A stretch of 64,000 nucleotides of DNA from Streptococcus australis (GTDB lineage: Bacteria > Bacillota > Bacilli > Lactobacillales > Streptococcaceae): NCBI RefSeq assembly GCF_901543175.1, contig NZ_LR594040.1, positions 620,001 to 684,000 of the forward strand. The letters are read 5' to 3'. The position numbers were made by a program, and so were the translations under genes. Below the pieces are notes generated by a model. It ran no database searches. It was given only the letters and a program-made list of their open reading frames with translations, and was not told where the DNA came from. The stretch's first letter is position 1, and every line of letters begins with the position of its first letter. Positions 12,697-50,319 of the stretch are shown here, in pieces.

Positions 12697-14061
12697 ATGA
12701 GTGAAAATAAGAAGAAAAATAAAATGGAGCGTGGATTAACCAATCGCCACGTTCAGGTGATGGCCATTGCTGGGACAATCGGAACAGGACTTTTCCTAGG
12801 TGCTGGTCGTTCTATCAGCCTTACTGGACCTTCTATCATCCTGATTTACATGATTACAGGAGCCTTTATGTTTTTGATGATGAGGGCTGTTGGAGAGATG
12901 CTCTACCAGGATCCAGAACAGCATACTTTTATCAACTTTATCACCCGTCATTTGGGGAAAGGCTGGGGGTATTTCTCGGTATGGTCTTATTGGTTGTCTG
13001 TCGTCTTTATCGGTATGGCAGAAATCACTGCGATTTCGCATTATGTTCAGTTTTGGTTTCCTAGCTGGCCTAGTTGGTTGATTCAGATTGTCTTTTTAAC
13101 GATTTTGGCCTTGGTCAATCTGATTGCGGTTAAGCTCTTTGGAGAAGTCGAGTTTTGGTTTGCAATGGTTAAGATTGTGGCTATTTTAGCTATGATTGCA
13201 ACGGGAGCCTTTATGGTTTTAACTGGATTTGAGACGCCACATGGGGCTGCAAGTCTGGCAAATATCAGCGACCAGTTCTCTCTTTTTCCAAATGGAGTCA
13301 TGAACTTTGTCATGGCCTTTCAAATGGTATTTTTTGCCTATCTGATGATTGAATTTATCGGAGTGACAACCTCTGAAACGAAGAATCCTCGTCAGGTTTT
13401 GCCCAAGGCCGTTAAGGAAATTCCTCTCCGAATTGTCTTCTTTTATGGTGGAGCTCTATTAGCCATTATGTCTATCATTCCCTGGAGAGAACTTGCTTCT
13501 TCAGATTCACCATTCGTAACGGTTTTTGAACTAGCAGGTATCAAGTGGGCAGCAGCTCTGATTAACTTCGTTGTTTTGACGTCGGCAGCTTCTGCTCTTA
13601 ACTCAACCCTTTACTCAACAGGACGTCATTTGTACCAGATTGCTCATGATTCGCCAAATCCATTCCTAAAAGCAATTAAGGCAGATACACTTTCTCGCCA
13701 CAACGTGCCACAAAATGCCATCATTGCCTCAGCGGTTCTGATTGCCCTAGCAGCCTTTATCAATGTCTTGCCAGGTGTTTCGGATGCCTTTGCCTTGATT
13801 ACGGCATCATCATCAGGTGTTTATATTGCGATTTATATCTTGATCATGGTGGCTCACCTTAAGTATCGCAAGTCACAGGACTTTATGGCGGATGGCTACC
13901 TCATGCCCCATTATCGTTTCTTAAACCCGTTAACCATGCTCTTCTTTGCCTTTGTCTTTGTAACCCTCTTTTTACAAGAATCTACCTTTATGGGAGCAAT
14001 TGGTTCAGCTATCTGGATTATCGGTTTTGGGATTTATAGCCAGTGGAAATTTAGAAAATAG
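12697..14061 (+). CDS. APC-family amino-acid permease (CycA/AnsP-like)
   Basis: 454 residues with about 12 hydrophobic segments. The N-terminus RGLTNRHVQVMAIAGTIGTGLFLGAG is the signature of the amino acid transporter branch of the APC superfamily (D-Ala/D-Ser/Gly, aromatic and basic amino acid permeases of enteric bacteria). The gene has GGAG upstream of the ATG and stands alone between two terminators. Substrate assignment from sequence is uncertain: alanine/serine/glycine (CycA) is one option, asparagine or basic amino acids are others. It should catalyse proton-coupled uptake through the cytoplasmic membrane. Confidence 0.85.
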   Translation: MSENKKKNKMERGLTNRHVQVMAIAGTIGTGLFLGAGRSISLTGPSIILIYMITGAFMFLMMRAVGEMLYQDPEQHTFINFITRHLGKGWGYFSVWSYWLSVVFIGMAEITAISHYVQFWFPSWPSWLIQIVFLTILALVNLIAVKLFGEVEFWFAMVKIVAILAMIATGAFMVLTGFETPHGAASLANISDQFSLFPNGVMNFVMAFQMVFFAYLMIEFIGVTTSETKNPRQVLPKAVKEIPLRIVFFYGGALLAIMSIIPWRELASSDSPFVTVFELAGIKWAAALINFVVLTSAASALNSTLYSTGRHLYQIAHDSPNPFLKAIKADTLSRHNVPQNAIIASAVLIALAAFINVLPGVSDAFALITASSSGVYIAIYILIMVAHLKYRKSQDFMADGYLMPHYRFLNPLTMLFFAFVFVTLFLQESTFMGAIGSAIWIIGFGIYSQWKFRK

Positions 14062-30189: not shown

Positions 30190-30899
30190 TGTCTATGTTA
30201 AAAGTTGAAAACCTCTCTGTGCATTACGGTATGATCCAAGCAGTTCGTGATGTAAGTTTCGAGGTTAATGAAGGTGAAGTTGTTTCCTTGATTGGTGCCA
30301 ATGGTGCTGGTAAAACAACCATTCTTCGCACCCTTTCAGGTTTGGTTCGTCCAAGTGCTGGTAAAATTCAATTTTTAGGAAAAGAAATTCAAAAGATACC
30401 AGCGCAAAAAATCGTGGCAGGTGGCCTTTCACAAGTTCCTGAAGGACGCCATGTTTTTCCAGGATTGACTGTTATGGAAAACTTAGAAATGGGAGCCTTT
30501 TTAAAGAAAAATCGTGAAGAAAATCAAGCCAACTTGAAAAAAGTCTTTTCACGTTTCCCTCGTCTGGAAGAACGCAAAAACCAAGATGCGGCAACTCTTT
30601 CAGGTGGTGAACAGCAGATGCTGGCTATGGGACGCGCGCTCATGTCAACACCTAAGCTCCTTCTCTTGGATGAGCCGTCAATGGGACTTGCCCCGATCTT
30701 TATCCAAGAAATTTTTGATATCATCCAAGATATTCAGAAGCAAGGAACAACGGTTCTCCTAATTGAACAGAACGCTAACAAGGCCCTTGCTATCTCTGAC
30801 CGAGGTTATGTACTTGAAACAGGAAAGATTGTCCTATCAGGAACAGGAAAAGAACTCGCAGCATCAGATGAAGTCAGAAAAGCATACCTAGGTGGCTAA
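30189..30899 (+). CDS. livF: Branched-chain amino-acid ABC transporter ATPase LivF
   Basis: 236 residues. Walker A GANGAGKTTILRTLSG, signature LSGGEQQMLAMGRAL, Walker B LLLLDEPSMGLAP and H-loop LLIEQNANKAL. It is the last gene of the livJHMGF operon. The first of several AGT-loop palindromes begins at the stop codon and probably ends the transcript. Confidence 0.96.
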   Translation: MSMLKVENLSVHYGMIQAVRDVSFEVNEGEVVSLIGANGAGKTTILRTLSGLVRPSAGKIQFLGKEIQKIPAQKIVAGGLSQVPEGRHVFPGLTVMENLEMGAFLKKNREENQANLKKVFSRFPRLEERKNQDAATLSGGEQQMLAMGRALMSTPKLLLLDEPSMGLAPIFIQEIFDIIQDIQKQGTTVLLIEQNANKALAISDRGYVLETGKIVLSGTGKELAASDEVRKAYLGG

Positions 30900-30981
30900 A
30901 ACAATCCAGTGGATTGTTTTAGTTGGCAGATAAAGATTGCGTAAGCAATCATCAAAATCCAGTGGATTGTTTTGTAGATGA
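30898..30981. repeat. Cluster of palindromes after livF (two with AGT loop)
   Basis: AAACAATCC-AGT-GGATTGTTT (about 30899-30919), then GATTGC-GTAA-GCAATC (30936-30951), then CAAAATCC-AGT-GGATTGTTTTG (about 30955-30977). The outer two share the TCC-AGT-GGA core seen at 18364-18380, 18607-18621 and 22111-22133. The first can act as the livF terminator. Beyond them, to 31076, I see only AT-rich sequence. Confidence 0.75.
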
Positions 30982-31076
30982 ATTTGAAGAGCTCCAAATT
31001 TGGGGCTTTTTCTTTGTTTTACCGCTATTTTGATGGAATTGATTTGAGTATCCGTTTTCTTGATATGGAATCTAAC

Positions 31077-31130
31077 TTGACAAAAGCATTTGTTCATTAT
31101 ATAATTAAGTAAATAACAATATTGAACAAA
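31077..31130 (+). promoter_or_regulatory. Promoter and possible operator of the licC-licA fusion gene
   Basis: Consensus TTGACA (31077-31082), a 17-base spacer, TATAAT (31100-31105). An inverted pair TTTGTTCA (31089-31096) and TGAACAAA (31123-31130) brackets the -10 and start site. The gene it serves begins with a winged-helix domain, so autoregulation is plausible. Confidence 0.7.
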
Positions 31131-31143
31131 AGAGGCTGAAGAT

Positions 31144-32922
31144 ATGCTATCAGAAAAACAATTTAAACTTTTACGTTTTTTGTTGACTCATAAAGACGAA
31201 AACTTTACGCAGAGACAATTGGCTGAACAGCTAGACATCTCTTTAGGGGCGGTGAATAACCTTCTCAAGGAATGTAAAGAAAAGAAGTGGATCAGTGAGG
31301 AAAATCATTTAACTGACCTAGGTGAGGAGGCTTTAACTCCGTATCAGGTGAAGAATGCCATTATCATGGCTGCTGGTATGAGTAGCCGCTTTGCTCCTCT
31401 GTCTTATGAGCTACCTAAAGGATTGCTTCAAGTCAAAGGTGAGCGTTTGATTGAGAGAGAAATCAAGCAATTGCAAGATGTTGGGATAGAGGACATTACA
31501 GTTATTGTAGGATATCTGCAAGAAAAAATGTTCTATCTAGCAGAAAAATTTGGTGTTAAAATCGTTGTGAATAATGATTACTATAAGTACAATAACTGCT
31601 CTTCTCTCATGCTAGTCAGAGACCAAATTTCTAACACTTACATTTGCTCGTCGGATAATTATTTTGTGGAAAATCCGTTTGAACGATATATTTACAGAGG
31701 TTATTATTCTACTATATTTGCAGAAGGGGACACAGACGAATACTGCGCTAAGGAAGACTCCAATCACACGATTATTGATGTTCAAATCGGTGGGACGAAT
31801 ACTTGGGCTATGGTGGGGCACGTTTATTTTGATCGCGCATTTAGTGAAAAATTCGTAGGCATTTTAGAAACTGAGTTTAAGCACGAACCATATCGCGAAC
31901 AGCTCTGGGAAGATTATTATAGCCGTCACGTCAAGGAGCTTCCTTTGGAAGCTCGGCATTATTCAGCAGATATTGTTAAGGAGTTTGATTCACTAGATGA
32001 GTTGCGTCAGTTTGATGAACACTATTTGGTGAATACGAATTCGGAAATTATCGATAATATCTGTAAGACATTGGGATGTGTAGCTTCAGATATTGTCAAT
32101 ATCAAACCTCTAAAAGATGGTCTAACCAACACTTCGTTTTCATTTGACTGCCTAGGAAAGAAATATGTTTACCGTCATCCGGGTAGGGGGACTGAAAATT
32201 ATATTGATCGTGCTAGTGAAGCGGCTTCCATGGAAATTGCTGCAAAATTAAAGATTGACCGTACTTTTGTCGCTATGAACAAGGATGAGGGCTGGAAAAT
32301 TTCAGAATTTATCCCTAATGCCAAGCAACTAGATTATGATAATTGGGATCATGTGGCAAAAGCAATGGATCTCTTGAGACGCTTGCACCAATCTGGAGAA
32401 AAAACGGGACATTCCTTTGATCAATTTGAGGGAATTGGTGATTTTAGACAAAAATTAAAAGCCAGCAATCGTTTTGAATTTGATGGGCTTGAAGAGTTGG
32501 ATAAGAATGTCTCAGTTCTCGAGAAGCTTCTACAAGAAGATCAAGCGAAAAAGGTTCTCTGCCATGGAGATTCTTATAGTCCGAATTTCTTGTTGAATGA
32601 AGCTGGAGAAATGAGCTTGATTGATTGGGAATATTCTGGTATGGGAGATCCAGCAGGAGATTTAGGAACCTTTATCGGGTGTTCAAATTATACATTGGAA
32701 GAAGCTGAAAAGGTGCTTGAAATCTATTTACAAGAAGTTCCAGACAAGAAAACCAAACGCCACTACTTGGCCTATGTATCAGTGACTTCATATTATTGGT
32801 TTTTGTGGGCCTTGTTCCAAGAAAGCGTTGGAAAACCAGTAGGTGAATTTCTTTATATCTGGTATCGTTATACCAAGCAGTATGGAAAACTTGCATTAGA
32901 TTTATACTTAGAGGAGAATTGA
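31144..32922 (+). CDS. Winged-helix / LicC-type cytidylyltransferase / LicA-type kinase fusion
   Basis: 592 residues with three domains. Residues 1-~65 are a winged helix (KLLRFLLTHKDENFTQRQLAEQLDISLGAVNNLL). About 72-300 is a nucleotidyltransferase with AAGMSSRFAP and the ELPKGLLQVKGE lysine, as in phosphocholine cytidylyltransferase LicC. About 310-592 is a choline/aminoglycoside-kinase fold with catalytic CHGDSYSPNFLL (about 471-482) and LIDWEYSGMGDPAGDLGTF. In mitis-group streptococci separate LicA and LicC proteins phosphorylate choline and make CDP-choline for teichoic acids; here both steps and a DNA-binding domain are in one chain. The small membrane protein gene follows after one base, then an NCS1 permease, suggesting uptake-activation of an amino alcohol or similar compound. 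Choline as the substrate is inferred only. Confidence 0.88.
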   Translation: MLSEKQFKLLRFLLTHKDENFTQRQLAEQLDISLGAVNNLLKECKEKKWISEENHLTDLGEEALTPYQVKNAIIMAAGMSSRFAPLSYELPKGLLQVKGERLIEREIKQLQDVGIEDITVIVGYLQEKMFYLAEKFGVKIVVNNDYYKYNNCSSLMLVRDQISNTYICSSDNYFVENPFERYIYRGYYSTIFAEGDTDEYCAKEDSNHTIIDVQIGGTNTWAMVGHVYFDRAFSEKFVGILETEFKHEPYREQLWEDYYSRHVKELPLEARHYSADIVKEFDSLDELRQFDEHYLVNTNSEIIDNICKTLGCVASDIVNIKPLKDGLTNTSFSFDCLGKKYVYRHPGRGTENYIDRASEAASMEIAAKLKIDRTFVAMNKDEGWKISEFIPNAKQLDYDNWDHVAKAMDLLRRLHQSGEKTGHSFDQFEGIGDFRQKLKASNRFEFDGLEELDKNVSVLEKLLQEDQAKKVLCHGDSYSPNFLLNEAGEMSLIDWEYSGMGDPAGDLGTFIGCSNYTLEEAEKVLEIYLQEVPDKKTKRHYLAYVSVTSYYWFLWALFQESVGKPVGEFLYIWYRYTKQYGKLALDLYLEEN

Positions 32923-32923
32923 G

Positions 32924-33109
32924 ATGAAACCGACATCTGAAATTGAAGAATTAGTAGCACACGAAACGAAAAGAAGGCTAGAAGAAATGGAATCTCCAAA
33001 CTATGTGTTTGCTCGGCCATTTCTAAAAAGTGATTTTACTATAGTCATCGCCCTAGTCATAGTCAACCTCATTTTGATTATACTAGCCATGACAGGGGGT
33101 ATTCAATAA
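32924..33109 (+). CDS. Small single-span membrane protein beside the NCS1 permease
   Basis: 61 residues. A charged N-terminal half (EIEELVAHETKRRLEEM) precedes one membrane segment (about residues 36-58, FTIVIALVIVNLILIILAMTGG). GAGGAG lies upstream and the permease ATG follows one base after the stop, so it is translationally coupled on both sides. It may be an accessory subunit of the transporter, as small one-span partners are for some sodium symporters. A decayed copy lies at about 34850-35013. Confidence 0.7.
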   Translation: MKPTSEIEELVAHETKRRLEEMESPNYVFARPFLKSDFTIVIALVIVNLILIILAMTGGIQ

Positions 33110-33110
33110 A

Positions 33111-34538
33111 ATGTCTAAGATGAATGACTTTATTCAACAGGAGACCATAACGGGAATTGTTCCCATGACCAACAAGGATCGTCAGTATTCTTTCTGGGAT
33201 CTCTTTCTGTCGACAAGTGGTTTTGCCATTGCGACTTGGTGTTATACCCAAGGAGCCTATGTGGCTCAATATTTGACCTTTAATCAAATGTTGATTAATA
33301 TTTTTAGTTTCAACATTATTTGGGTTTTTATCGAATGTCTCCCAATTTTGTTTGCGGTTAAATATGGAATTGATTTGTGGATTTGGTTGAGGGCTGTCTT
33401 AGGAAAAAAAGGGGTAGCCTTGCTATCAACCATTATTAGTTTGGCTAACTTTGGCTGGTATGCCGTTGCGGCCAATCTTTTTGCCAGTTCCATGATTCAT
33501 TTAGGGAATAATTTTGGACTTGGCTTAGACAAGGGAGTATGGGCACCGATTCTAGGCACTCTCTGTGTTCTCCTTGGAACGCTGATTGCGCTGGGAGGTC
33601 CAGAAGTGATTAAATGGACCAATCGATTCTTGGTAATCGCCTTGTTGATTGTCGGTCTGATTATCGTTGGAATCTGTTTTGTAGCCGTTCCTATTACTGA
33701 CATTATGAACATTCAACCAGCGACCCAAGGAGATTTAACTCCACTAGAACGCTTCATGCTTTCTGGGGAAGGAAATGTAGCCTTTGCCTTCTCTTGGTCT
33801 ACACAGGCGCTGGTCTTGCCACGTTTGGCAAAATCAGAACGCAGTGGCTATTGGGCTACAGCTTTATCATACGGGGTTGTCGCTCCATTCTTTGTTGCGA
33901 CAGGTGGAGTAATGGCTCTAGCCATGTTTGTCAAAACAGGTGTCTATGAAAGTGATCCAACGACGATGCTTTCAACTCTAAGCACCCCAGCCTTTGCTCT
34001 CTTAAGTCTACTACTAGTAGCCTTTGCCAATATTGGAACCCAGGGTACAGGATCGTACGTGAACTGTATGATTGTAAAAAGTGGGATGCCAAAAGTAAGC
34101 TATAAACTAATGGTTTGGATTGCCATGGTATACGTGAGCCTACTTACAATCTGGGGAGGAGTGGAAGAGTACTTCGGTTCCTTCATCTCACTAGCCGCTT
34201 ATATTCAGGGTCCCATTATCGGAATGATTGTTGTTGACTACTTTATCTTAAGAAAACGAAAACTCGATTTGCGTTCAGCCTATTTCCTTGAAGGGCATGA
34301 CGCCTATGAATTCACTAAGGGATTTAACCTAGTTGGCTTATCTTGCGTATTTATCTCCTTATTGGTAGCAGTACTATTTGTTTACAACCCTGTAACTGCA
34401 CAAATTCAAAGTTCAATCTTTTTAATCACGACTGGTAGTGGCTTTACTGCGATCTTTGGTGGTTTATTGTACTGGCTAGCTAGCTTAACCCCGTTAAAAC
34501 GCTATATGATCAAGGATCGGGACTCAGTTACTATTTAA
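33111..34538 (+). CDS. NCS1-family permease (cytosine/purine/allantoin-type), copy 1
   Basis: 475 residues with about 12 membrane segments. The soluble N-terminus (QQETITGIVPMTNKDRQYSFWDLF) and the first helices with SFWDLFLSTSGFAIATWCYTQGAY fit the nucleobase:cation symporter-1 family. The family carries cytosine, purines, hydantoins, thiamine or pyridoxine; the substrate here is not predictable. It follows the licC-licA fusion and the small membrane protein in one operon. A second copy with about 93% identical residues follows at 35016. Confidence 0.85.
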   Translation: MSKMNDFIQQETITGIVPMTNKDRQYSFWDLFLSTSGFAIATWCYTQGAYVAQYLTFNQMLINIFSFNIIWVFIECLPILFAVKYGIDLWIWLRAVLGKKGVALLSTIISLANFGWYAVAANLFASSMIHLGNNFGLGLDKGVWAPILGTLCVLLGTLIALGGPEVIKWTNRFLVIALLIVGLIIVGICFVAVPITDIMNIQPATQGDLTPLERFMLSGEGNVAFAFSWSTQALVLPRLAKSERSGYWATALSYGVVAPFFVATGGVMALAMFVKTGVYESDPTTMLSTLSTPAFALLSLLLVAFANIGTQGTGSYVNCMIVKSGMPKVSYKLMVWIAMVYVSLLTIWGGVEEYFGSFISLAAYIQGPIIGMIVVDYFILRKRKLDLRSAYFLEGHDAYEFTKGFNLVGLSCVFISLLVAVLFVYNPVTAQIQSSIFLITTGSGFTAIFGGLLYWLASLTPLKRYMIKDRDSVTI

Positions 34539-34572
34539 GGATATAGGATTGATTAGAAATACTCTAGTATGC

Positions 34573-34594
34573 CTCCTGCTGGAGGGCTTTAGAA
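34573..34594 (+). terminator. Weak terminator after NCS1 copy 1
   Basis: GCCTCC and GGAGGGC pair (one bulge) over a short TGCT loop, followed by TTT. Confidence 0.4.
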
Positions 34595-35013
34595 AATCTT
34601 TATTGATACGGTAGAATAGGCTGAGCAGGTACTTGAAATTTCTGTAGAAGAAATTCCAAACGTGAAAACGAAATACAGCTATCTAGCTCAAGTTTTTGGG
34701 CATCATACTATTACTCTTTTGTGAGGATTATTTCAGGAGAGTGTCTGTAAATCTATTAGGGGAGTTTTTCTATATTTGGTACCACAATAGTGGGCAGTAT
34801 GGTCAATTGAAATTAATTTTTAGTCGGAGAACTGACAATATGAGAATTGGTATTGAACTTGAGCAATTAGTTGTAGGTGAAACTAAAAAATGAAAGCCTT
34901 AATCTATGTGTATTTATCTCCCCTTTCTTAAAAGTTTATTTTACATAAGTAATTGATATGATTCTAGTCAATCATATTCTGATCATCTTAGCCATGACAG
35001 GAGGTATTCAATA
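34590..35013 (+). pseudogene. Decayed duplicate of the kinase C-terminus and the small membrane-protein gene
   Basis: This 424-base stretch matches 32670-33109 with many changes. Recognisable fragments are EQVLEI-VEEIPNVKTKY (compare EKVLEIYLQEVPDKKTKR), GEFFYIWYHNSGQYGQL (compare GEFLYIWYRYTKQYGKL) and ELEQLVVGETKK (compare EIEELVAHETKR). The last 30 bases (LAMTGGIQ, stop) are almost identical to the intact small gene. Frameshifts and stops break all of it. It is the left part of a tandem duplication whose right part is the second permease. Confidence 0.85.
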
Positions 35014-35015
35014 AA

Positions 35016-36443
35016 ATGTCCAAGATGAATGATTTCATTCAACAGGAGACGATAACGGGAATCGTTCCCATGACCAACAAGGATCGTCAGTATTCTTTCT
35101 GGGATCTCTTCTTATCGACAAGTGGTTTTGCCATCGCAACTTGGTGTTATACCCAAGGAGCTTATGTAGCTCAATATTTGACCTTTAATCAAATGTTGAT
35201 TAATATTTTTAGTTTCAACATTATCTGGGTTTTTATCGAATGTCTCCCAATCTTGTTTGCAGTTAAATATGGAATTGATTTATGGATTTGGTTGAGAGCT
35301 GTTCTAGGTAGAAAAGGGGTAGCTGTTCTATCAACTGTGATTAGTCTGGCAAATTTTGGTTGGTACGCCGTGACCGCCAATCTTTTTGCCAGCTCCATGA
35401 TTCATTTGGGAAATAATTTTGGACTTGGTTTAGATAAGGGAGTATGGGCACCGATTCTAGGCACTCTCTGTGTTCTCCTTGGAACGCTGATTGCTCTTGG
35501 GGGTCCAGAGGTGATTAAAGGCACTAATCGCTTTCTAGTGGTAGCCTTGTTATTTGTTGGGCTAATCATCGTTGGGATCTGTTTTGTTGCGGTTCCGATT
35601 AGGGATATTATGAATGTCCAACCTGCCATTCAAGAAAATTTGACACCGATTGAACGTTTTATGATGTCAGGGGAAGGAAATGTGGCCGTAGCCTTTTCTT
35701 GGTCTACACAAGCCTTTGTCTTGCCACGTTTGGCAAAATCAGAACGTAGTGGCTATTGGGCTACAGCCTTGTCATATGGGGTTGTTGCGCCATTCTTTGC
35801 TGCGACAGGTGGAGTGATGGCTCTAGCCATGTTTGTCAAAACAGGTGTCTATGAAAGTGACCCAACGACAATGCTTTCAACGTTGAGCACTCCAGCCTTT
35901 GCTCTCTTAAGTCTACTATTAGTAGCCTTCGCCAATATTGGAACCCAGGGTACAGGATCGTACGTGAACTGTATGATTGTAAAAAGTGGGATGCCCAAAG
36001 TAAGCTATAAGCTAATGGTTTGGATTGCCATGATTTATGTGAGCCTACTCACCATCTGGGGAGGAGTGGATGAATACTTCGGTTCCTTCATCTCGCTGGC
36101 TGCCTATATTCAAGGCCCCATTATCGGAATGATTGTTGTTGACTACTTTATCTTAAGAAAACGAAAACTTGATTTGCGTTCAGCCTATTTCCTTGAAGGA
36201 CATGACGCCTATGAGTTTACAGATGGTTTTAACTTAGTGGGATTATCTTGTGTAATCATTTCCTTATTAGTTACGGTATTATTTGTTTACAATCCTATAA
36301 CAAAGCATATCCAGAGTCCTATGTTTTTGCTCACAACTGGTAGTGGCTTTACTGCGATCTTTGGTGGTTTATTGTACTGGCTAGCTAGCTTAACTCCGTT
36401 AAAACGCTATATGATTAAGGATAGAGATTCCGTTACGATTTAA
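35016..36443 (+). CDS. NCS1-family permease, copy 2
   Basis: 475 residues, same length and frame as copy 1, offset by 1905 bases. About 30-35 residues differ by eye. They cluster at ~180-225 (ITDIMNIQPATQGDLTPLE versus IRDIMNVQPAIQENLTPIE) and at the C-terminal loop ~435-450. An intact reading frame beside decayed duplicated neighbours suggests that the permease copy is under selection while the kinase tail is not. Without the upstream promoter it probably depends on read-through or on a promoter in the remnant. A strong terminator follows. Confidence 0.85.
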   Translation: MSKMNDFIQQETITGIVPMTNKDRQYSFWDLFLSTSGFAIATWCYTQGAYVAQYLTFNQMLINIFSFNIIWVFIECLPILFAVKYGIDLWIWLRAVLGRKGVAVLSTVISLANFGWYAVTANLFASSMIHLGNNFGLGLDKGVWAPILGTLCVLLGTLIALGGPEVIKGTNRFLVVALLFVGLIIVGICFVAVPIRDIMNVQPAIQENLTPIERFMMSGEGNVAVAFSWSTQAFVLPRLAKSERSGYWATALSYGVVAPFFAATGGVMALAMFVKTGVYESDPTTMLSTLSTPAFALLSLLLVAFANIGTQGTGSYVNCMIVKSGMPKVSYKLMVWIAMIYVSLLTIWGGVDEYFGSFISLAAYIQGPIIGMIVVDYFILRKRKLDLRSAYFLEGHDAYEFTDGFNLVGLSCVIISLLVTVLFVYNPITKHIQSPMFLLTTGSGFTAIFGGLLYWLASLTPLKRYMIKDRDSVTI

Positions 36444-36447
36444 GTTT

Positions 36448-36476
36448 AAGAGAGAAGGCTGTTTCTCTCTTTTTTG
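36448..36476 (+). terminator. Terminator after NCS1 copy 2
   Basis: AAGAGAGAA / TTCTCTCTT stem followed by T6. Confidence 0.8.
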
Positions 36477-36575
36477 TGATTGAATGTTACAAAATCTTGA
36501 AAAAGAGATGAAAGCGTTTGATAGTTTTTGTAAGAAAGTGTATAATTATAGTAGCAATAAAGAAGGAGAAGTCTC

Positions 36576-37258: not shown

Positions 37259-37341
37259 GTATACAAATTGAAATATCAAGCAAAATATGGAAAGAAATGA
37301 GAGAATGTGGTATAATGAAACGATGTGATAAAGGAGTATTT

Positions 37342-38437
37342 ATGGACATTTCAGAAATTCGTCAAAAAATTGACGCAAATCGTGAAAAATTAGCTTCTTT
37401 CAGGGGGTCTCTTTGACCTCGAAGGCTTAGAGGAAGAGATTGCCATCTTGGAGAACAAGATGACAGAACCTGATTTTTGGAACGATAATATCGCGGCCCA
37501 AAAAACGTCGCAAGAATTAAATGAATTAAAAAACACCTACAACACCTTCCGTAAGATGGAAGAGTTGCAGGATGAAGTTGAAATTTTATTGGACTTTTTA
37601 GTAGAAGACGAGTCTGTACGTGATGAGCTGGTTGAACAGTTGACAGAACTGGATAAGATGATGACCAGTTACGAAATGACGCTTCTCTTGTCAGAACCTT
37701 ATGACCATAATAATGCAATCTTGGAAATTCATCCAGGTTCTGGTGGTACTGAGGCGCAGGACTGGGGCGATATGTTGCTCCGTATGTATACTCGTTATGG
37801 AAATGCCAAAGGTTTTAAAGTAGAAGTCTTGGATTACCAGGCTGGTGATGAAGCAGGTATCAAGTCGGTGACCTTGTCCTTCGAAGGTCCAAATGCTTAT
37901 GGCCTACTCAAGTCGGAAATGGGTGTTCACCGTTTGGTCCGTATTTCACCATTTGACTCAGCCAAACGTCGCCATACCTCTTTTACATCTGTTGAGGTTA
38001 TGCCTGAGTTAGATGATACCATCGAAGTGGAGATTCGTGAAGATGATATCAAAATGGATACCTTCCGTTCAGGTGGTGCTGGTGGACAGAACGTCAATAA
38101 GGTTTCAACTGGTGTGCGTTTGACGCACATTCCTACGGGGACAGTCGTTCAATCGACAGTCGATCGTACCCAGTATGGAAATAGAGATCGTGCTATGAAG
38201 ATGTTGCAAGCTAAACTCTATCAAATGGAGCAAGAAAAGAAAGCAGCGGAAGTCGATTCCCTTAAAGGTGAGAAAAAAGAAATCACTTGGGGAAGTCAGA
38301 TCCGTTCTTATGTCTTCACACCTTATACGATGGTGAAAGATCACCGTACGAGCTTTGAAGTTGCGCAGGTAGATAAGGTTATGGATGGAGATCTAGATGG
38401 TTTCATCGATGCCTATCTCAAATGGCGAATCAGCTAA
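37342..38437 (+). CDS. prfB: Peptide chain release factor 2 with programmed +1 frameshift
   Basis: ATG 37342 has AAGGAG five bases upstream. After 24 codons the frame meets TGA at 37414-37416 in the context AGGGGG-TCT-CTT-TGA-C, the classic prfB site: an internal Shine-Dalgarno, CUU slippery codon and a poorly read UGA-C. A +1 shift at CTT (37411-37413) joins the frame ending at 38437 and gives about 364 residues, the normal RF2 length. RF2 itself reads UGA, so low RF2 favours the shift. The SPF anticodon-like motif is in [14 protein letters not shown] and the catalytic GGQ in [10 protein letters not shown]. ftsE begins 18 bases after the stop. Confidence 0.97.
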
Positions 38438-43554: not shown

Positions 43555-46500
43555 ATGTTTTTTCAGGACAGAGAGATAAAATATTCAATTCGCAAATTGT
43601 CAGTTGCTACTGTATCACTTGCGATTGGATTTTTGTTTGCACCTGCGGCGCTTGGAGCCGCTCAAGTGGCTCAAGCTGATGAGCTTGTAGCTGCTGAACA
43701 AGTGGAGAATAAAGCAGAGAATCAGGTCTCGGTGGGCTCTTCTGCAACAGAGCAAGCAGAGCCTCAGAAAGAAAGCCAAGTTGCTTTGAAATCTACTGCA
43801 TCTGAGGTAGCAGAGACAAGTCAAGCGACAGATTCGACTGCTTTTAAAAATGCTCAGCCAGCTACAGGCACAAGCCAGCCAGCTACAACCACTGCTCAAC
43901 CAGCGTCAGCAAATGCTAGTCTAAACAAGAGCACTTTGGAGAACTACCTCAAAAACTTGCGCAGCAAGGACTTTTCAAGTAAGACAGACGATAGTCTAGA
44001 AATCTTGAATGGCGTAATGACAGCTGCCGATGGTGTGCTTCAAACTGCAACAAAGCAAGAAGAAATTGATAAAGTTTATCGCAATCTAGTGACTTTTGTC
44101 AATTCAGGTCTTCGTGATAAAAATCCGAAAGTCATCCCAGACAAGGATAAGACTCCTCATTCGGCACTTTATGAGTTTGAAAGTGCTACACCAGGAAAAA
44201 CAACTCCGCTTGCTCTGAACTACTTGAAGCCAGAAGACACAAAAATCTACAAAAAGGGTGATAAAGTAAAGGCCATCCAGCCAACTGAAACAACTTATGT
44301 AGAGAATGATGGAAGTGGTAGATGGACCTTTAAGGGCTATGACTATGATAGTCAGGTGATTGACAAAGATGATGTTTACTTCACAGGTAAGTGGGAATAT
44401 ACACCAACACCATACAAGGCTACCTATAGAGCGGTTAATGGTTCACCTGGAAAAACTCCGCCACCTTATGTTGCAAACTGGAGTCCAGAAGATAAAAGAA
44501 GATTTGCTGAGGGTGAAGTAGTAAAAGCACAAGAATTTCACTGGGTTTTTTATACTTCAGAAGAATTTCCTAACCGAAAAGGTTACTGGGCTTTGACTGG
44601 CTTTGATGCTCCAAGTAAAGTGGTAAATAATGGTGATGTGGAGTTCGTAGGAACTTGGAAATACTTTGAGGATGTCATTGTATCCTACAAGGCTGTGAAC
44701 GAGCAAGATTGGGAGAATTTTTATAAGTTACCAAGTAGTCCTAAGACCTCAAACTATGACAAATATAGATTACCTCTTCCTAAGGAGATAAAGGATCTAG
44801 AAAGCAAGCTATACGATTACAAGCTTTCTCTCAATCAGTTTGATCAACGCAATAAGTATTTACCTAAAGATATACTGGATACGCTAGCTGCTTTGTACCG
44901 CTACGATGAAGTTCAAGGCGTCTACAAACCCTTTTATGATGCAGAACATGAAGGGAATTGGACTTTCGAGGAAGATATAGTAGATTTAACCTTCAATCGT
45001 GAACTGGAGCGGGCGGCTACATATGGGGAATTGCCAAAAGTTACAATGCCATTGACGTTTACATTTAAACCAGTTCCTCGGAAACCGACCTATGAGTTTA
45101 TCAGTGGAACGGCTGGCAAAGCACTACCTGCTGAGATCAATAATCTGAAGCCAGTATATGCACCAAGTGAATGGACATATATGGATAGGAAGACATATCC
45201 GAAAGGCAAGGATATAGTTCAGTCTGTTAAACCGCTTAATGATTCCTACTATGATGCAGCTAACGGTGGTACTTGGAACTTTTCGGGCTATGATTTTGAT
45301 AAAAAACCAGTGAGCGACTGGGAGCACGATGGATGGAATCTCAAGTTCACAGGTACTTGGACATTTACACCAGGAACCTATCCAGAAAACTATAAGTTTG
45401 TCAGCAAAGACCCTAGCCTGTCTCTCCCAGAGGAAATCACGACCTATATTCCAAGCACTGGAAAAAACTATAGTAATGGCGATACTGTCCTTGCAACAGC
45501 TCCCCTGAAGACGACCTACATGGACTTTGAGAATAAAGGTACTTGGAAATTTGAAGGCTATGACGCTAATAGCAAGGTAGTTAATCAAGATAAAGTTCTC
45601 TTTACAGGCACTTGGTCCTTCACACCACACCGCGATAAGACAGTTTCCTTTGACTTTGTCAGTGATACTCCAGGGAAGACCATTCCTGATGATTTGAAGG
45701 CACAAATCCCTGCCCCTATCACGACTTCTCCATCAGATTATTCTGATAATGTCTATAATGAAATTCAATATCTCAGTTCATATGTCGATAATGAAAATGA
45801 TGGTACATGGGTTCCTCAGCAGATTCCTCAGCGAAAGGAGGACGTTGAGAAACCAGCTGACGATGAGGATTCTACCTACACTGTTCATTGGAAATTTGAG
45901 CCGACCAAGCATAGTGTCTACTATGATTTCTATACAGATTCAAAAGATGATTCTGGTCAAACGATTTATCCGCCATCAACTTTGTATGATCTAATCACTT
46001 ACGAAAGAGAATTTGTCAAGGGTGAAAAAGCTCGCGTTAAAATGCCATCTAAAACAAGATTTGAGGATCCTGATGGCCGAGGAACTTGGGTATTTGATGA
46101 CTACTATGAAGATGATAATACGACTATTTCTCCACGTGTGAAAACAGTAGAGAACGCAGACGTTACCTTTAGAGGAAAATGGATCTTGGTTCCTACCGAT
46201 CAGGCGGATAAGATCTACCGACTAGAGTATAAGTTTACTAACTCGACTCCTGCCTATCCTCTTCCAAGTAAGATTCGCGATATGCTTCCAGCTGGCACTG
46301 ATTTCGTTGCACGAGCTGACGATTACAAAGATGCCAGCAAGCTTGACACATCTACAGTAACTGTTCCGACAGGTACATGGACCTTCCATGGTTTTGATGC
46401 GGATAAATACGGAAAAGCTATTGCAGGTACGCAAGTGAAGACTATCACAGGATCTTGGAGCTTTACGCCAAATGGTATAGACTATCAGTTCCAATCAACT

Positions 46501-49500
46501 AATCCTGATTTCGTATTACCAGATCATATCACCAAGTTGACTCCGAAAAACCCAATTGATTATAAGATGGGCGGTCTGTTCCTTACAGAAGTAGACGCTG
46601 AGCAACCAAGTGAAACGACTTATGTTGACAAAGCAAACAAGGTAACTTGGACATTTGCAGGATACGATAAAGAAAAAATCGTTGTAGCAAAAGGTAGACA
46701 GACTTTCCTTGGAAGCTGGGTGCCTACTCCAAATCCAGAATATGTATTCAAATCTTCTAAAGCAGGTGTTCCATTGCCACAAAGTATTTTGGGAATGCTT
46801 CCAAATGATGAGGCTTCTTATAAGGTTGGTGACACCATTGTAGCCAAACAACCTGATAAAGAATCAGTAGTTGAAGAAGAAAAAGATTATGTCTGGACCT
46901 TCAAAGGTTACGATCAGAAGAATGCGACGTATAATGGCAAGCGCGTGACATTCACAGGTATCTGGGAAGTAACGCCTAGACCGCATCATGTAAGCTATAC
47001 TTTTGTAAGCATTACGGCTGGTGTTGATTTGCCTGAATTTATCCAGAAGAAAGCACCAAAAGATAGCTCAAGCTATTACAACACGCAAAAAGTTGTACCA
47101 GAAGAGCCGACAACAAAGACCTACACAGATAGTGTGAACGACGGCACATGGACCTTCAAGGGTTACGACGCAGCTAGCGCCGTTGTCAACAAGGCAGATG
47201 TAGAGTTTGTAGGTAAGTGGGCCTTCGAAGCCAACAAGTATCAAGCTACTTACCGCTTCGAGAGCGAGACAGCAGATAAAGCTCTTCCAACAGCCATCGC
47301 AGATTTGACACCAAGCGACAGTGCAACATATGTGAATGGTGATACTGTTTCCGCTCAGCAACCAGCACAAACGACTTACACAGATACTGTGAACGATGGC
47401 ACTTGGACCTTCAAGGGTTACGACGCAGCTAGCGCCGTTGTCAACAAGGCAGATGTAAAGTTTGTAGGAAAATGGGTCTTTGAAGCCAACAAGTACCAAG
47501 CTACTTACAGCTTCGCAAGCGCCACAGCAGGTAAAGCACTTCCAGCAGCCATCACAGATTTGACACCAAGCGACAGTGCAACTTATGTGAATGGTAACTC
47601 TATTTCCGCTCAGCAACCATCTCAAACCACCTACACAGACCCAGTGAATGATGGCACATGGACCTTCAAGGGTTACGGCGCAGCTAGCGCCGTTGTCAAC
47701 AAGGCTGATGTAGAGTTTGTAGGTAAATGGTCCTTCGAAGCCAACAAGTATCAAGCTACTTACAGCTTCGCAAGCGCAACATCAGGTAAGCAACTTCCAG
47801 CAGCCATCGCCGCATTGACCCCAAGCGACAGTGCAACTTATGAAAATGGTAATACTGTTTCCGCTAAGCAACCATCTCAAACCACATACGCAGATACTGT
47901 GAATGATGGCACTTGGACCTTCAAGGGCTATGACGCAGCTAGCGCCGTTGTCAACAAGGGTGATGTAGAGTTTGTAGGAAAATGGGCCTTTGTAGCTAAC
48001 AAGTATCAAGCTACTTACAGCTTCGCAAGCGCAACGGCAGGTAAGCAACTTCCAGCAGGTATCGCAACACTGCTTCCAAGTGACAGTACAACTTATGAAA
48101 ATGGTAATAGTGTTTCCGCTAAGCAACCATCTCAAATCACATACACAGATACTGTGAACGACGGCACATGGACCTTCAAGGGTTACGACGCAGCTAGCGC
48201 CGTTGTCAACAAGGCAGATGTAGAGTTTGTAGGTAAGTGGGCCTTTGTAGCTAACAAGTACCAAGCTACTTATCGCTTCGAGAGCGAAGGAACAAGTAAA
48301 GCACTTCCAGCAGCTATCACAGATTTGACCCCAAGCGACAGTGCAACATATGTGAATGGTGATTCTGTTTCCGCTCAACAACCAGCGCAAACGACCTACA
48401 CAGATACTGTGAACGATGGCACTTGGACCTTCAAGGGTTATGACGCAGCTAGCGCCGTTGTCAACAAGGCTGATGTAGAGTTTGTAGGTAAGTGGTCCTT
48501 TGAAGCCAACAAGTACCAAGCTACTTACAGCTTTGCAAGCGCAACAGCAGGTAAGCAACTTCCAGCCGGTATCGCAACGCTGCTTCCAAGCGACAGTGCA
48601 ACTTATGAAAATGGTAATACTGTTTCCGCTCAACAACCAGCGCAAACGACCTACACAGATACTGTGAACGATGGCACTTGGACCTTCAAAGGTTACGACA
48701 CAGCTAGCGCCGTTGTCAACAAGGCTAATGTAGAGTTTGTAGGTAAGTGGACCTTTAAAGCCAACAAGTACCAAGCTACTTACAGCTTCGCAAGCGCAAC
48801 AGCAGGTAAGCAACTTCCAGCAGCCATCGTCGCATGGACCCCAAGCGACAGTGCAACTTATGAAAATGGTAATACTGTTTCCGCTCAACAACCGGCGCAA
48901 ACCACATACACAGATACTGTGAATGATGGTACATGGATCTTCAAGGGTTACGACACAGCTAGCGCCGTTGTCAACAAGGCTGATGTAGAGTTTGTAGGTA
49001 AGTGGACCTTTGAAGCCAACAAGTACCAAGCTACTTATCGCTTCGAGAGCGCCACAGCAGGTAAGCAACTTCCAGCAGGTATCGCAACGCTGCTTCCAAG
49101 CGACAGTGCAACATATGTGAATGGTGATTCTGTTTCAGCTCAGCAACCATCTCAAACCACCTACACAGATACTGTGAATGATGGCACTTGGACCTTCAAG
49201 GGTTATGACACAGCTAGCGCCGTTGTCAACAAGGCTGATGTAGAGTTTGTAGGTAAATGGGAATTCAAGGCGAATCCGACAAATGCGGAAACTTTTACGC
49301 CTCAGGTAACGGAAGAAACTATCAAGGTTGGTCAAACACCTGACTTGACCGATAATGTGACGAACTTGCCAAGCCTTCCAGCTGGCACTAAGGTAGTTGA
49401 TATCACACCTGCGGGTCAAATAGATACTACAAAACCAGGTACTTATAGCGGTACAGTTCGTGTTGATTATCCAGATGGTTCTTCTGCTGAAGTTTCTGTA

Positions 49501-50319
49501 CCAGTTAATGTTTTGCCTGCACCGGTAACTGAAACCTATAAAGTGACTTACCGCTTCGAAAGTGCCACGGTAGACAGCAACCTGCCAGCAGAAGTATTGA
49601 GCTTACTTCCGCAAAGTGGAACATATACGACAAGTACTTCTGCAGCAATTACTTTTGTTCCAGAAGCACCGATGCCTGTAGAAGTTGCTGTTGCAAATGG
49701 TACATGGACGTTCCTAGGTTATCAAGAAGTGGAAGAGGGAGCAAATCTAACCTTCGTCGGTAAATGGGCCTTTGAAGCTAAGCAAGCTCCTAGTTCGCAA
49801 CCGGCACCAGCGCCGCAACCGCAACCGCAGCCACAACCGGAACCAGCGCCGCAACCGCAACCGCAGCCACAACCGGAACCAGCACCACAGCCGGCACCAG
49901 CGCCGCAGCCGCAACCGCAGCCACAACCGGAACCACAACCACAACCAGTTCCGCAACCACAGCCAGCACCAGCACCGCAGCCACAACCGCAGCCACAACC
50001 GCAGCCACAGCCGGAGCCAGCACCGCAACCACAACCACAACCAGTTCCGCAACCACAGCCGGCACCTCAACCAAATCCAGTTCCACCAGTGAATCCAGGA
50101 GAAGAGCAGGGGGCTGATAATAATCAGGCAAATAGACTTCAACCAAGAAAACCTGAAGAGAATCCACCAGTTCAAAGTCCAGCAGGAGAAAAGGTAAAAC
50201 AAGCTACATTGCCAAATACAGGTAGCACTGCACCGCTTTCACTCATTGGACTAATGACAAGCTCTCTTCTTGCAGGTCTAGGAGCACTACTTTTTGGTCG
50301 CAAGCGGAAAGATGATTAA
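43555..50319 (+). CDS. Giant YSIRK/LPXTG surface protein with ~20 SHIRT-type repeats (periscope adhesin)
   Basis: 2254 residues. A YSIRK signal (YSIRKLSVATVSLAIGF, residues ~11-27) targets secretion to the septum. A Gln/Ala/Thr-rich stalk and a short helical region (~122-185) follow. From about residue 202, ~80-110-residue SHIRT-type repeats recur, each ending in a WTF-GYD...FVGKW-like strand. The first ~11 are strongly divergent, eight (1228-1907) are near-identical 85-residue units, then comes a Rib-like domain (~1911-1993), one more SHIRT unit (~1994-2077), a Pro/Gln-rich wall-spanning stretch (~2082-2182) and LPNTG at 2219-2223 with membrane segment and RKRKDD tail. SHIRT arrays in S. gordonii Sgo_0707 form a stiff rod whose repeat number varies between strains. 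No ligand-binding head domain is recognisable before the repeats. Confidence 0.93.
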   Translation: MFFQDREIKYSIRKLSVATVSLAIGFLFAPAALGAAQVAQADELVAAEQVENKAENQVSVGSSATEQAEPQKESQVALKSTASEVAETSQATDSTAFKNAQPATGTSQPATTTAQPASANASLNKSTLENYLKNLRSKDFSSKTDDSLEILNGVMTAADGVLQTATKQEEIDKVYRNLVTFVNSGLRDKNPKVIPDKDKTPHSALYEFESATPGKTTPLALNYLKPEDTKIYKKGDKVKAIQPTETTYVENDGSGRWTFKGYDYDSQVIDKDDVYFTGKWEYTPTPYKATYRAVNGSPGKTPPPYVANWSPEDKRRFAEGEVVKAQEFHWVFYTSEEFPNRKGYWALTGFDAPSKVVNNGDVEFVGTWKYFEDVIVSYKAVNEQDWENFYKLPSSPKTSNYDKYRLPLPKEIKDLESKLYDYKLSLNQFDQRNKYLPKDILDTLAALYRYDEVQGVYKPFYDAEHEGNWTFEEDIVDLTFNRELERAATYGELPKVTMPLTFTFKPVPRKPTYEFISGTAGKALPAEINNLKPVYAPSEWTYMDRKTYPKGKDIVQSVKPLNDSYYDAANGGTWNFSGYDFDKKPVSDWEHDGWNLKFTGTWTFTPGTYPENYKFVSKDPSLSLPEEITTYIPSTGKNYSNGDTVLATAPLKTTYMDFENKGTWKFEGYDANSKVVNQDKVLFTGTWSFTPHRDKTVSFDFVSDTPGKTIPDDLKAQIPAPITTSPSDYSDNVYNEIQYLSSYVDNENDGTWVPQQIPQRKEDVEKPADDEDSTYTVHWKFEPTKHSVYYDFYTDSKDDSGQTIYPPSTLYDLITYEREFVKGEKARVKMPSKTRFEDPDGRGTWVFDDYYEDDNTTISPRVKTVENADVTFRGKWILVPTDQADKIYRLEYKFTNSTPAYPLPSKIRDMLPAGTDFVARADDYKDASKLDTSTVTVPTGTWTFHGFDADKYGKAIAGTQVKTITGSWSFTPNGIDYQFQSTNPDFVLPDHITKLTPKNPIDYKMGGLFLTEVDAEQPSETTYVDKANKVTWTFAGYDKEKIVVAKGRQTFLGSWVPTPNPEYVFKSSKAGVPLPQSILGMLPNDEASYKVGDTIVAKQPDKESVVEEEKDYVWTFKGYDQKNATYNGKRVTFTGIWEVTPRPHHVSYTFVSITAGVDLPEFIQKKAPKDSSSYYNTQKVVPEEPTTKTYTDSVNDGTWTFKGYDAASAVVNKADVEFVGKWAFEANKYQATYRFESETADKALPTAIADLTPSDSATYVNGDTVSAQQPAQTTYTDTVNDGTWTFKGYDAASAVVNKADVKFVGKWVFEANKYQATYSFASATAGKALPAAITDLTPSDSATYVNGNSISAQQPSQTTYTDPVNDGTWTFKGYGAASAVVNKADVEFVGKWSFEANKYQATYSFASATSGKQLPAAIAALTPSDSATYENGNTVSAKQPSQTTYADTVNDGTWTFKGYDAASAVVNKGDVEFVGKWAFVANKYQATYSFASATAGKQLPAGIATLLPSDSTTYENGNSVSAKQPSQITYTDTVNDGTWTFKGYDAASAVVNKADVEFVGKWAFVANKYQATYRFESEGTSKALPAAITDLTPSDSATYVNGDSVSAQQPAQTTYTDTVNDGTWTFKGYDAASAVVNKADVEFVGKWSFEANKYQATYSFASATAGKQLPAGIATLLPSDSATYENGNTVSAQQPAQTTYTDTVNDGTWTFKGYDTASAVVNKANVEFVGKWTFKANKYQATYSFASATAGKQLPAAIVAWTPSDSATYENGNTVSAQQPAQTTYTDTVNDGTWIFKGYDTASAVVNKADVEFVGKWTFEANKYQATYRFESATAGKQLPAGIATLLPSDSATYVNGDSVSAQQPSQTTYTDTVNDGTWTFKGYDTASAVVNKADVEFVGKWEFKANPTNAETFTPQVTEETIKVGQTPDLTDNVTNLPSLPAGTKVVDITPAGQIDTTKPGTYSGTVRVDYPDGSSAEVSVPVNVLPAPVTETYKVTYRFESATVDSNLPAEVLSLLPQSGTYTTSTSAAITFVPEAPMPVEVAVANGTWTFLGYQEVEEGANLTFVGKWAFEAKQAPSSQPAPAPQPQPQPQPEPAPQPQPQPQPEPAPQPAPAPQPQPQPQPEPQPQPVPQPQPAPAPQPQPQPQPQPQPEPAPQPQPQPVPQPQPAPQPNPVPPVNPGEEQGADNNQANRLQPRKPEENPPVQSPAGEKVKQATLPNTGSTAPLSLIGLMTSSLLAGLGALLFGRKRKDD
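47236..49275 (+). repeat. Eight tandem 255-bp SHIRT units
   Basis: Each unit begins with the codons for KYQATY and encodes 85 residues. Unit starts are spaced exactly 255 bases apart (47236, 47491, ... 49021). Variation is patchwork: YRFES/YSFAS, YVNGD/YENGN, AAI/AGIATL and DAAS/DTAS alternate among units, which suggests recombination between them. Confidence 0.95.
49797..50095 (+). repeat. Pro-Gln/Pro-Ala coding repeat
   Basis: An array of CCR-CAR and CCR-GCR codons encodes a PQPQPAPAPQPEP stretch of about 100 residues. It spans the wall between the last SHIRT domain and the sorting signal and is prone to length change. Confidence 0.9.

Follow-up and report, generated by a model that had tools for sequence, protein, structure and literature searches.

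A Winged Helix–LicC–LicA Fusion with an NCS1 Permease as a Candidate Self-Regulating Operon for Alkanolamine Activation in Streptococcus

Introduction

Why would a Streptococcus that holds a tarI–tarJ–licA–licB–licC run elsewhere in its genome also carry a LicA-type kinase and a LicC-type cytidylyltransferase in one chain with a DNA-binding domain, followed by a permease of another family than LicB? The question is raised by a locus in a window of 64,000 nucleotides (620001–684000 of a one-contig 1.93-Mb Streptococcus genome; coordinates of the locus itself are window positions, on the forward strand unless said otherwise), in which a 592-residue fusion (31144–32922) precedes a 61-residue single-span membrane protein, hereafter S61 (32924–33109), and a 475-residue NCS1 permease (33111–34538), with a 1-base gap between each successive pair of open reading frames (ORFs). 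The initial annotation had described this chain and these spacings correctly and had proposed that the locus imports a choline-like small alcohol and activates it with CTP under the control of the same polypeptide. This proposal is well supported, albeit indirectly, by the co-occurrence of an operator with the winged helix, by nearby LicD genes, and by relatives in which EutH, DMT, or BCCT transporters replace the permease. We argue here, with moderate confidence, for a self-regulating operon that would import an alkanolamine, most likely ethanolamine, and activate it as a cytidine diphosphate (CDP) alcohol for LicD-type surface decoration. Throughout, genomes compared are labelled G and loci compared L, each with a number.

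Domain Architecture of the Fusion

The three domains of the fusion are found concordantly by its ORF, Pfam, Protein Data Bank (PDB) sequences, an AlphaFold model (pLDDT 89.9), and Foldseek. The winged-helix domain spans approximately residues 1–65 (31144–31338; MarR_2, 7.8e-08; PF24409, 4.9e-08; HTH_24), and the model places four helices (4–15, 23–30, 34–46, and 58–67) and two bridge residues within residues 1–68. It is followed by a LicC-type cytidylyltransferase domain (residues 69–292, 31348–32019; NTP_transf_3, 8.7e-11), which matches LicC 1jyk at E 5.2e-38 and is superposed on LicC 1jyk/1jyl with a TMt of 0.93–0.94 (0.94 for 1jyl), and by a LicA-type kinase domain (residues 311–572, 32074–32859; Choline_kinase, 3.3e-15), recognized from a PDB sequence match (LicA 4r77, 1e-25; TMt 0.82–0.83) and from a residue alignment to LicA. 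With kinase and cytidylyltransferase domains homologous to LicA and LicC, the protein belongs to the CDP-alcohol activation enzymes.

A Conserved Operator-Like Site Accompanies the Winged Helix

The most solid new conclusion concerns regulation. The fusion gene is preceded by the only 12/12 consensus promoter of the window (31077–31105), made of TTGACA (31077–31082), 17 bases, and TATAAT (31100–31105), in a stretch where 26 weaker or equal sites are found for 15.2 expected; its hexamers are retained in most aligned streptococcal copies. A candidate operator, TGTTCA-N26-TGAACA (31091–31128), overlaps the −10 region and extends to just 5′ of the ribosome-binding site. When the upstream regions of 19 copies, from streptococci and G677, are aligned, TGTTCA and TGAACA blocks stand around the −10 box, each with 5 of 6 letters invariant.

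This arrangement reaches far beyond Streptococcus. Our survey of public relatives covered the best 80 of 550 confirmed matches, in 79 loci, with members from S. oralis, S. mitis SK579, S. hohhotensis, Gemella sanguinis, Lachnospiraceae, Eggerthellaceae, Coriobacteriia, Gardnerella, and Actinomyces, and TGTTCA-N24..26-TGAACA recurs 5′ of the fusion gene, or of the first gene of its operon, in both Bacillota and Actinomycetota. From the 79 loci, 69 upstream regions entered the scan, and 43 of them agree with the motif in at least 11 of its 12 positions, whereas dinucleotide shuffles give a mean of 0.18/69, the reversed motif 1/69, and swapped half-sites 2/69; outside the streptococcal loci the score is 35/61, including L096, which was itself part of the motif-defining set. 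Random 363-base windows of the same loci match in about 1% of cases (162 of at most 20000). In eight loci, other genes of the operon come ahead of the fusion (L103, L105, L111, L120, L146, L147, L148, and L153), and there the operator lies 5′ of the leading gene; distant fusions that have a winged helix and adjoin BCCT or DMT genes carry it as well, at 12/12 in L045, L072, L077, L079, and L087 and at 11/12 in L074, L085, and L086; in L083 the winged helix is present and the operator was not found. L131, where the site lies about 2 kb 5′ of the fusion and the gene directly behind it is ambiguous, was excluded from the operon list.

The presence of the site goes with that of the winged helix. 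Once proteins are clustered at 80% identity, an operator is found within 3.3 kb in 58 of 68 clusters with a winged helix and in 0 of 7 without; if L051, scored as lacking the domain by pattern although its start looks like one, is reassigned by eye, the counts become 58/69 and 0/6 (p 6e-5, Fisher, ancestry ignored). As in autoregulating enzyme-repressors, the enzyme carries its own DNA-binding domain, and its promoter is overlaid by an operator-like sequence that is conserved; self-borne regulation by the fusion appears well supported by this sequence evidence. The N-terminal domain would bind, as a dimer, the two half-sites, whose spacing of about three helical turns would suit a large dimer. 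Since the operator overlaps a 12/12 sigma-70 promoter, repression is the natural guess: the fusion would most likely repress its operon until the substrate, its presumed effector, becomes available. It could be objected that the winged helix is a relic and that a different regulator acts at the TGTTCA/TGAACA site, since 10 of the 68 winged-helix clusters have no site at the cut-off, which also counts against self-regulation in general; we nevertheless regard this as most improbable, given that none of the seven clusters scored without a winged helix has the site and that site and protein occur together in two phyla.

A wider regulon in the genome of the window was considered and rejected: apart from the operator itself, the pattern matches exactly only twice (N24 at 13727 and N30 at 1145016), each time within a coding frame, and the control with the reversed motif likewise yields 3 per strand.

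Transporter Exchange and Kinase Residues Point to an Alkanolamine

After regulation, the compound class is the next best supported part, and we consider that an alkanolamine is well supported by the following comparisons. In the proposed pathway, the NCS1 permease, with S61 as a small subunit, would import the alkanolamine, the C-terminal kinase would phosphorylate it, the middle domain would make the CDP-alcohol, and LicD-family transferases encoded elsewhere in the genome would place phosphoethanolamine, or a methylated form of it, on teichoic acid or another glycan. This last step is plausible because Mycoplasma mf1, a LicD-type enzyme, is reported in an excerpt of PMC11982090 to accept CDP-ethanolamine.

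The transporter slot of the relatives is filled by NCS1 with S61, by EutH, by DMT/LicB, or by BCCT proteins, and by an aminoethylphosphonate ATP-binding cassette (ABC) transporter in one version that has no kinase. Among 77 fusion proteins, the operon transporter, labelled by BLAST to references, is NCS1 in 25, DMT in 18, EutH in 8, and BCCT, PhnU, or an amino-acid permease in 1 each, with none recognized in 25, a class that includes contig ends; L148 and L153 are entered under both of their transporters, L106, L150, and L152 were removed, L123 and L126 have no fusion ORF, and L164 failed the length filter. EutH adjoins the fusion in seven loci (Pfam E <= 1.7e-112), four of which (L121, L122, L127, and L135) reach the NCBIfam EutH cut-off. 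In the kinase tree, the EutH-linked L111 groups with the NCS1-linked L120 as its sister (support 0.78), and the EutH-linked L148 is the sister of three NCS1-linked kinases, those of L146, L147, and L153 (support 0.82), which suggests, with moderate support, that NCS1 and EutH were interchanged twice among close kinases.

The kinase pocket tells a related story. Compared with the LicA contact residues given in an excerpt of PMC4364537, the fusion keeps the equivalents of T29, D176, N181, D194, E196, Y197, W251, and W254, among them D476, N481, D494, Y497, W552, and W555 in its own numbering, so that the catalytic residues and the aromatic box stand; V178, E213, and Y268 are replaced by Y478, C513, and F569. 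The protein therefore departs from LicA proper, in which Glu213 faces the quaternary amine and Val178 lies in the pocket. Tyr occupies LicA position 178 in 25/25 NCS1-linked and 7/8 EutH-linked fusions, against 5/18 DMT-linked fusions and 11/25 without a recognized transporter, and the Trp position of the cytidylyltransferase choline box (Tyr200) is Tyr in 22/25 NCS1-linked and Trp in 17/18 DMT-linked proteins. Besides, E256 aligns with Asp192 of Spn-LicC (the numbering offset being our own deduction), a position where PntC also has Glu according to an excerpt of PMC6697681.

Operons that hold two systems are instructive in this regard. L148 is ordered LicA–DMT–EutH–fusion and L153 S61–NCS1–fusion–LicC–LicA–DMT; in each of these operons, positions 178/213 read Leu/Glu in the separate LicA, with the canonical Glu213, and Tyr/Asp in the fusion kinase. 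Because two kinases and two transporters share one operon, two substrates are argued for, and the DMT/LicA pair presumably serves choline.

Ethanolamine therefore seems more likely than choline. The latter is not the best guess because tarIJ-licABC is already present, because the ammonium rim of the kinase differs, and because EutH fills the NCS1 slot in close relatives. A second choline system of the same anatomy, making CDP-choline with high affinity or inducibly beside licABC, would account for the retained aromatic box (Y497, W552, and W555), which is compatible with choline and thus speaks against our preference, and for those other fusions whose transporter slot holds a BCCT or a DMT/LicB-like gene. 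We find it rather unlikely given the loss of Glu213, the exchange of NCS1 and EutH, the two kinase types of the mixed operons, and the separate licA and licC matches in 12/12 fusion-bearing Streptococcus genomes.

Several further observations weigh against ethanolamine or soften the comparisons just made. EutH is identified in these loci by sequence homology, the EutH linked to L114_7 lies at a distance of four genes and could pertain to the other fusion of that locus, and the tree supports of both interchanges are only moderate. Cys513 is shared by 11/18 DMT-linked fusions and so cannot report the substrate alone, most DMT-linked fusions also share the Glu at the E256 position, and the choline-box position is mixed in EutH-linked proteins (3 Tyr, 4 Trp, and 1 Phe of 8). 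The counts are not independent, since many of the NCS1-linked sequences come from closely similar streptococcal copies. The published lipoteichoic acid of S. oralis Uo5 carries phosphocholine, and no mention of ethanolamine turned up when the paper on it (PMC4649388) was searched. More generally, the binding, transport, and enzyme activities proposed for the locus products are inferences.

Some variants of the system have contents of their own. In L134 (8866–13308), a second operator (11/12) precedes aminoethylphosphonate ABC transporter-like genes and a winged-helix LicC without a kinase, as expected if its substrate were a phosphonate, which would need none; this could be a self-regulated phosphonate activation system. 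In L103 (4194–11423) and L105 (2942–9029), the operator is followed by a LicC–aminotransferase fusion (by Pfam, in L105), a methyltransferase (checked in L103), the winged-helix fusion, S61, and NCS1, the extra genes being perhaps devoted to aminoethylphosphonate chemistry or to methylating the nitrogen of the activated amine. L045, L046–L049, L072, and L077 represent another, distant class of LicC–LicA fusions, in whose vicinity stand a LicC-like gene of its own and, by BLAST label or by eye, a transporter of the BCCT or DMT kind. Finally, the position of LicA Asp176 is Asn or Ser in the fusions of L107 and L109, whose kinases may be inactive; that of L109 adjoins a BCCT-type gene.

The NCS1 Permeases and Their Small Companion

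The initial annotation had overlooked part of the locus. Downstream of the first permease, a decayed stretch (34539–35015, without assigned strand) and an intact second NCS1 gene (35016–36443) are found. By homology and three-frame translation, the former retains a kinase 3′ end (34548–34778; 53% identity to kinase residues 493–572, with 4 stops) and the last ~20 residues of S61 (about 34953–35015); since both the kinase end and the S61 tail persist, an earlier second unit existed whose front has since been lost.

The first permease (type A: A120, W169, F225, and V262; PF02133, 1.9e-18) and the second (type B: T120, G169, V225, and A262; PF02133, 4.2e-19) are 94% identical. Pfam scores of 66.9 and 69.1 bits (cut-off 23.5) and a LeuT-type fold place them in the NCS1 family, the model of type A (pLDDT 78.1) having CodB (7qoa) and Mhp1 as its best structural matches. 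Their subfamily is divergent, with E220 invariant across 16 aligned members. A point against a straightforward reading as NCS1 transporters is that they score only 62.6 and 59.2 bits with TIGR00800 (NCS1 nucleobase symporter), whose cut-off is 353.1 bits. Their family membership nonetheless invites the thought that another NCS1-typical alcohol, such as thiamine, hydroxymethylpyrimidine, pyridoxine, or a nucleobase-like alcohol, is imported and activated, and the kinase is weakly similar to thiamine kinase and to GntI, with scores of 50.6 and 85.2 bits that stay well under the cut-offs of these curated models. We judge this improbable: the solved structures nearest to the fusion are those of LicC and LicA, its kin are accompanied by LicD, EutH, BCCT, and LicB-like genes, and the position of Mhp1 Q121, a hydantoin-binding residue, is Ala, Thr, or Asp in these proteins. 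Pocket mapping to Mhp1 relied on one weak alignment (34 bits), from which only W116=W117 and 120=Q121 were used.

When five copies of each type are compared, taken from the S. oralis-type, G128, and G677 lineages, A and B are separated everywhere at only 5 of 475 positions: 120 (A/T), 169 (W/G), 225 (F/V or T), 262 (V/A), and 430. The single-copy genomes G109 and G119 belonged to the B and A sets, respectively; at the three positions checked, other single-copy cases are A-like (G032, G116, G067, and G007) or B-like (L090 and L091). The DNA of A and B is 88.3% identical in the window, 83.5% in G128, and 80.8% in G677, when type A genes of different lineages share 74.6–80.7%; in the DNA tree, the A and B genes of one lineage group together for G677 (1.0) and for G128 (0.91), and at the protein level this closeness holds in G677 but not in G128. 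Divergence between the types peaks mid-gene, with a second rise toward the 3′ end in the case of the window and of G128. This looks like homogenization with retained differences, or like repeated change at the same sites. Because three of the differences shrink the side chains of B, type B may accept a bulkier substrate.

Two features of these permeases would suit the choline alternative: the smaller side chains of type B at 169, 225, and 262 could enlarge its cavity, and remote NCS1 kin near MttB-family genes suggest quaternary amines. Indeed, two remote relatives (32–33%) lie near MttB-family methyltransferases and B12-binding proteins, one of them also near a PocR/AraC-type regulator, on the basis of which this NCS1 branch looks like one that carries alkyl-ammonium compounds; the neighbors of the closest outside relative (G243, 48%) were uninformative.

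S61 has one membrane span, by eye, and a conserved E..ETxxRLxxM...Y.F motif apparent from its family alignment. Its search against Pfam gave no family, with scattered and weak matches (best E 0.015). It is a faithful companion: it occurs in all 12 Streptococcus genomes with the full fusion, it precedes the first NCS1 gene in each fusion-linked unit checked, and in Berryella it persists at 24% identity beside an NCS1 protein at 52%. The idea of NCS1 genes devoid of S61 was dropped when three-frame translation showed S61 whole or nearly so in seven cases (L094, the second unit of L095, which is preceded by a run of N, the first unit of L096, L100, L104, whose start is divergent, L153, and L073), and also in L041 and L043. 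In the S. oralis type, the tandem second NCS1 lacks an intact S61 of its own. The simplest reading is that S61 is a small subunit of the transporter, by analogy with SGLT2–MAP17, a LeuT-type transporter with a small subunit that is among the Foldseek matches of the NCS1 model; it must be weighed against this that tblastn (E <= 1) did not find S61 beside three remote NCS1 relatives (L178–L180).

Taken further, the preferred alkanolamine reading leads to a broader proposal, which we hold more tentatively. The fusion would be a trifunctional ethanolamine sensor, kinase, and cytidylyltransferase that, with an NCS1/S61 importer, forms a bacterial CDP-ethanolamine pathway for surface glycans; Bacillota and Actinomycetota would share the operator code, the choice of transporter and the possession of a kinase varying with the substrate (ethanolamine, choline, or aminoethylphosphonate), and, despite the apparent homogenization, streptococcal NCS1 A would take ethanolamine and B a bulkier methylated form.

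Neighborhood and Distribution

In full, the unit runs from an ABC-ATPase gene (ending at 30899) through the fusion, S61, NCS1, the decayed stretch, and the second NCS1 to a CBS-domain gene (from 36576). The placement between liv and acuB initially assigned holds insofar as Pfam recognizes an ABC ATPase upstream and a CBS-domain protein downstream, the names livF and acuB being given by eye. A terminator-like hairpin follows the second NCS1 gene (36448–36471), as seen in a pattern scan only, which returns 4 in the window for 4.1 expected by chance. In the tarIJ-licABC run, licB is an EamA and tarJ an alcohol-dehydrogenase-like protein by Pfam, and the genome has four LicD-family matches, none of them within the fusion operon.

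The full fusion is found at >=81% identity in 12 of 147 Streptococcus genomes, that of the window included, and NCS1 is found in the same 12: the association is not due to chance. The suggestion that the fusion might mostly occur without the permease is thus contradicted in Streptococcus, although in the wider set only the 25 of 77 already mentioned have NCS1, other transporters standing in its place in 27 and none being recognized in 25. Seven further Streptococcus genomes have distant LicC–LicA fusions (29–35%) in polysaccharide-type clusters, without this NCS1. The window fusion is 96–97% identical to fusions in S. oralis records. The unit lies between liv and acuB in 11 of the 12 genomes, the locus being elsewhere in G128, with two full units; two NCS1 genes are present in 6 of the 12. 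Each of the 12 has at least three LicD-family genes, when any LicD is found in 90 of the 147. In G484, fusion and NCS1 stand two genes after a LicD gene, and in G677 (L096) two tandem units lie downstream of a tarJ-like gene, with two LicD genes and a flippase-type gene. G677 is filed as "Streptococcus sp. 263_SSPC," but the genome tool places it in another family of the order.

Two features of the window lie apart from the locus. A 2254-residue ORF (43555–50319) has, by eye, the look of a surface protein. A short frame at 37330–37450 ends in CTTTGAC directly 5′ of a long frame at 37448; it resembles the programmed frameshift of release factor 2, and is ordinary.

Comparison with Known Systems

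If the broader proposal is correct, the locus would supply the missing genetics for mitis-group strains in which ethanolamine replaces phosphocholine in C-polysaccharide. Such a replacement is described for S. mitis SK598 and SK601 in a passage of PMC2444020 that gives no genetic basis. Choline or ethanolamine surface decoration bears on the retention of surface proteins and on the encounter with the host in the mitis group. The locus also joins three topics that are usually separate, namely a polypeptide that unites a gene switch with two enzymes, an NCS1 branch probably devoted to alkyl-ammonium compounds rather than to nucleobases, and a family of small proteins that accompanies this branch and is absent from Pfam, and the same switch sequence before related genes in distant bacteria makes the proposal directly testable. 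No paper on this fusion, its operator, or this role of NCS1 was found in the open-licence PubMed Central (PMC) literature, as judged by titles and abstract openings.

The mode of regulation has well-known counterparts. In NadR and BirA, a helix-turn-helix (HTH) domain is fused to an enzyme of the pathway that it controls, and NadR combines a nucleotidyltransferase, a kinase, and a dedicated transporter. The likeness is one of HTH–enzyme mode: enzyme families and operator are unrelated, and we claim no membership. Among CDP-choline enzymes, LicAC of Treponema denticola is, we assume, likewise a single fused chain, and we know of no winged helix or operator for it. It differs in serving phosphatidylcholine, although it also makes CDP-choline from scavenged choline through LicA and LicC activities (excerpt of PMC6805115). 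PntC has a LicC-like domain, often fused, but its substrate is a phosphonate and it lacks a partner kinase domain (excerpt of PMC6697681), whereas the fusion described here has one. With regard to the transporter, Mhp1 and CodB have their fold and PF02133 in common with these permeases, which nevertheless form a divergent subfamily with an invariant E220 and a small companion protein; that an NCS1 member can carry a cation is exemplified by MetT, for metformin (excerpt of PMC13390362).

A close parallel is finally the lic1 locus itself (tarIJ-licA-licB-licC) with LicD. In both cases the two activation reactions are assigned to homologous domains, the locus has its own importer, and LicD-type enzymes are encoded in the genome. 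Here, however, kinase, cytidylyltransferase, and winged helix are joined in one chain, the kinase rim differs, the operon has its own operator, and NCS1 with S61 stands in place of the DMT importer LicB, a LicB-like gene being found in the separate canonical locus. We conclude that the locus is genuine and that it represents an uncommon version of the CDP-alcohol (lic) pathway, one that would bring along its own regulator.

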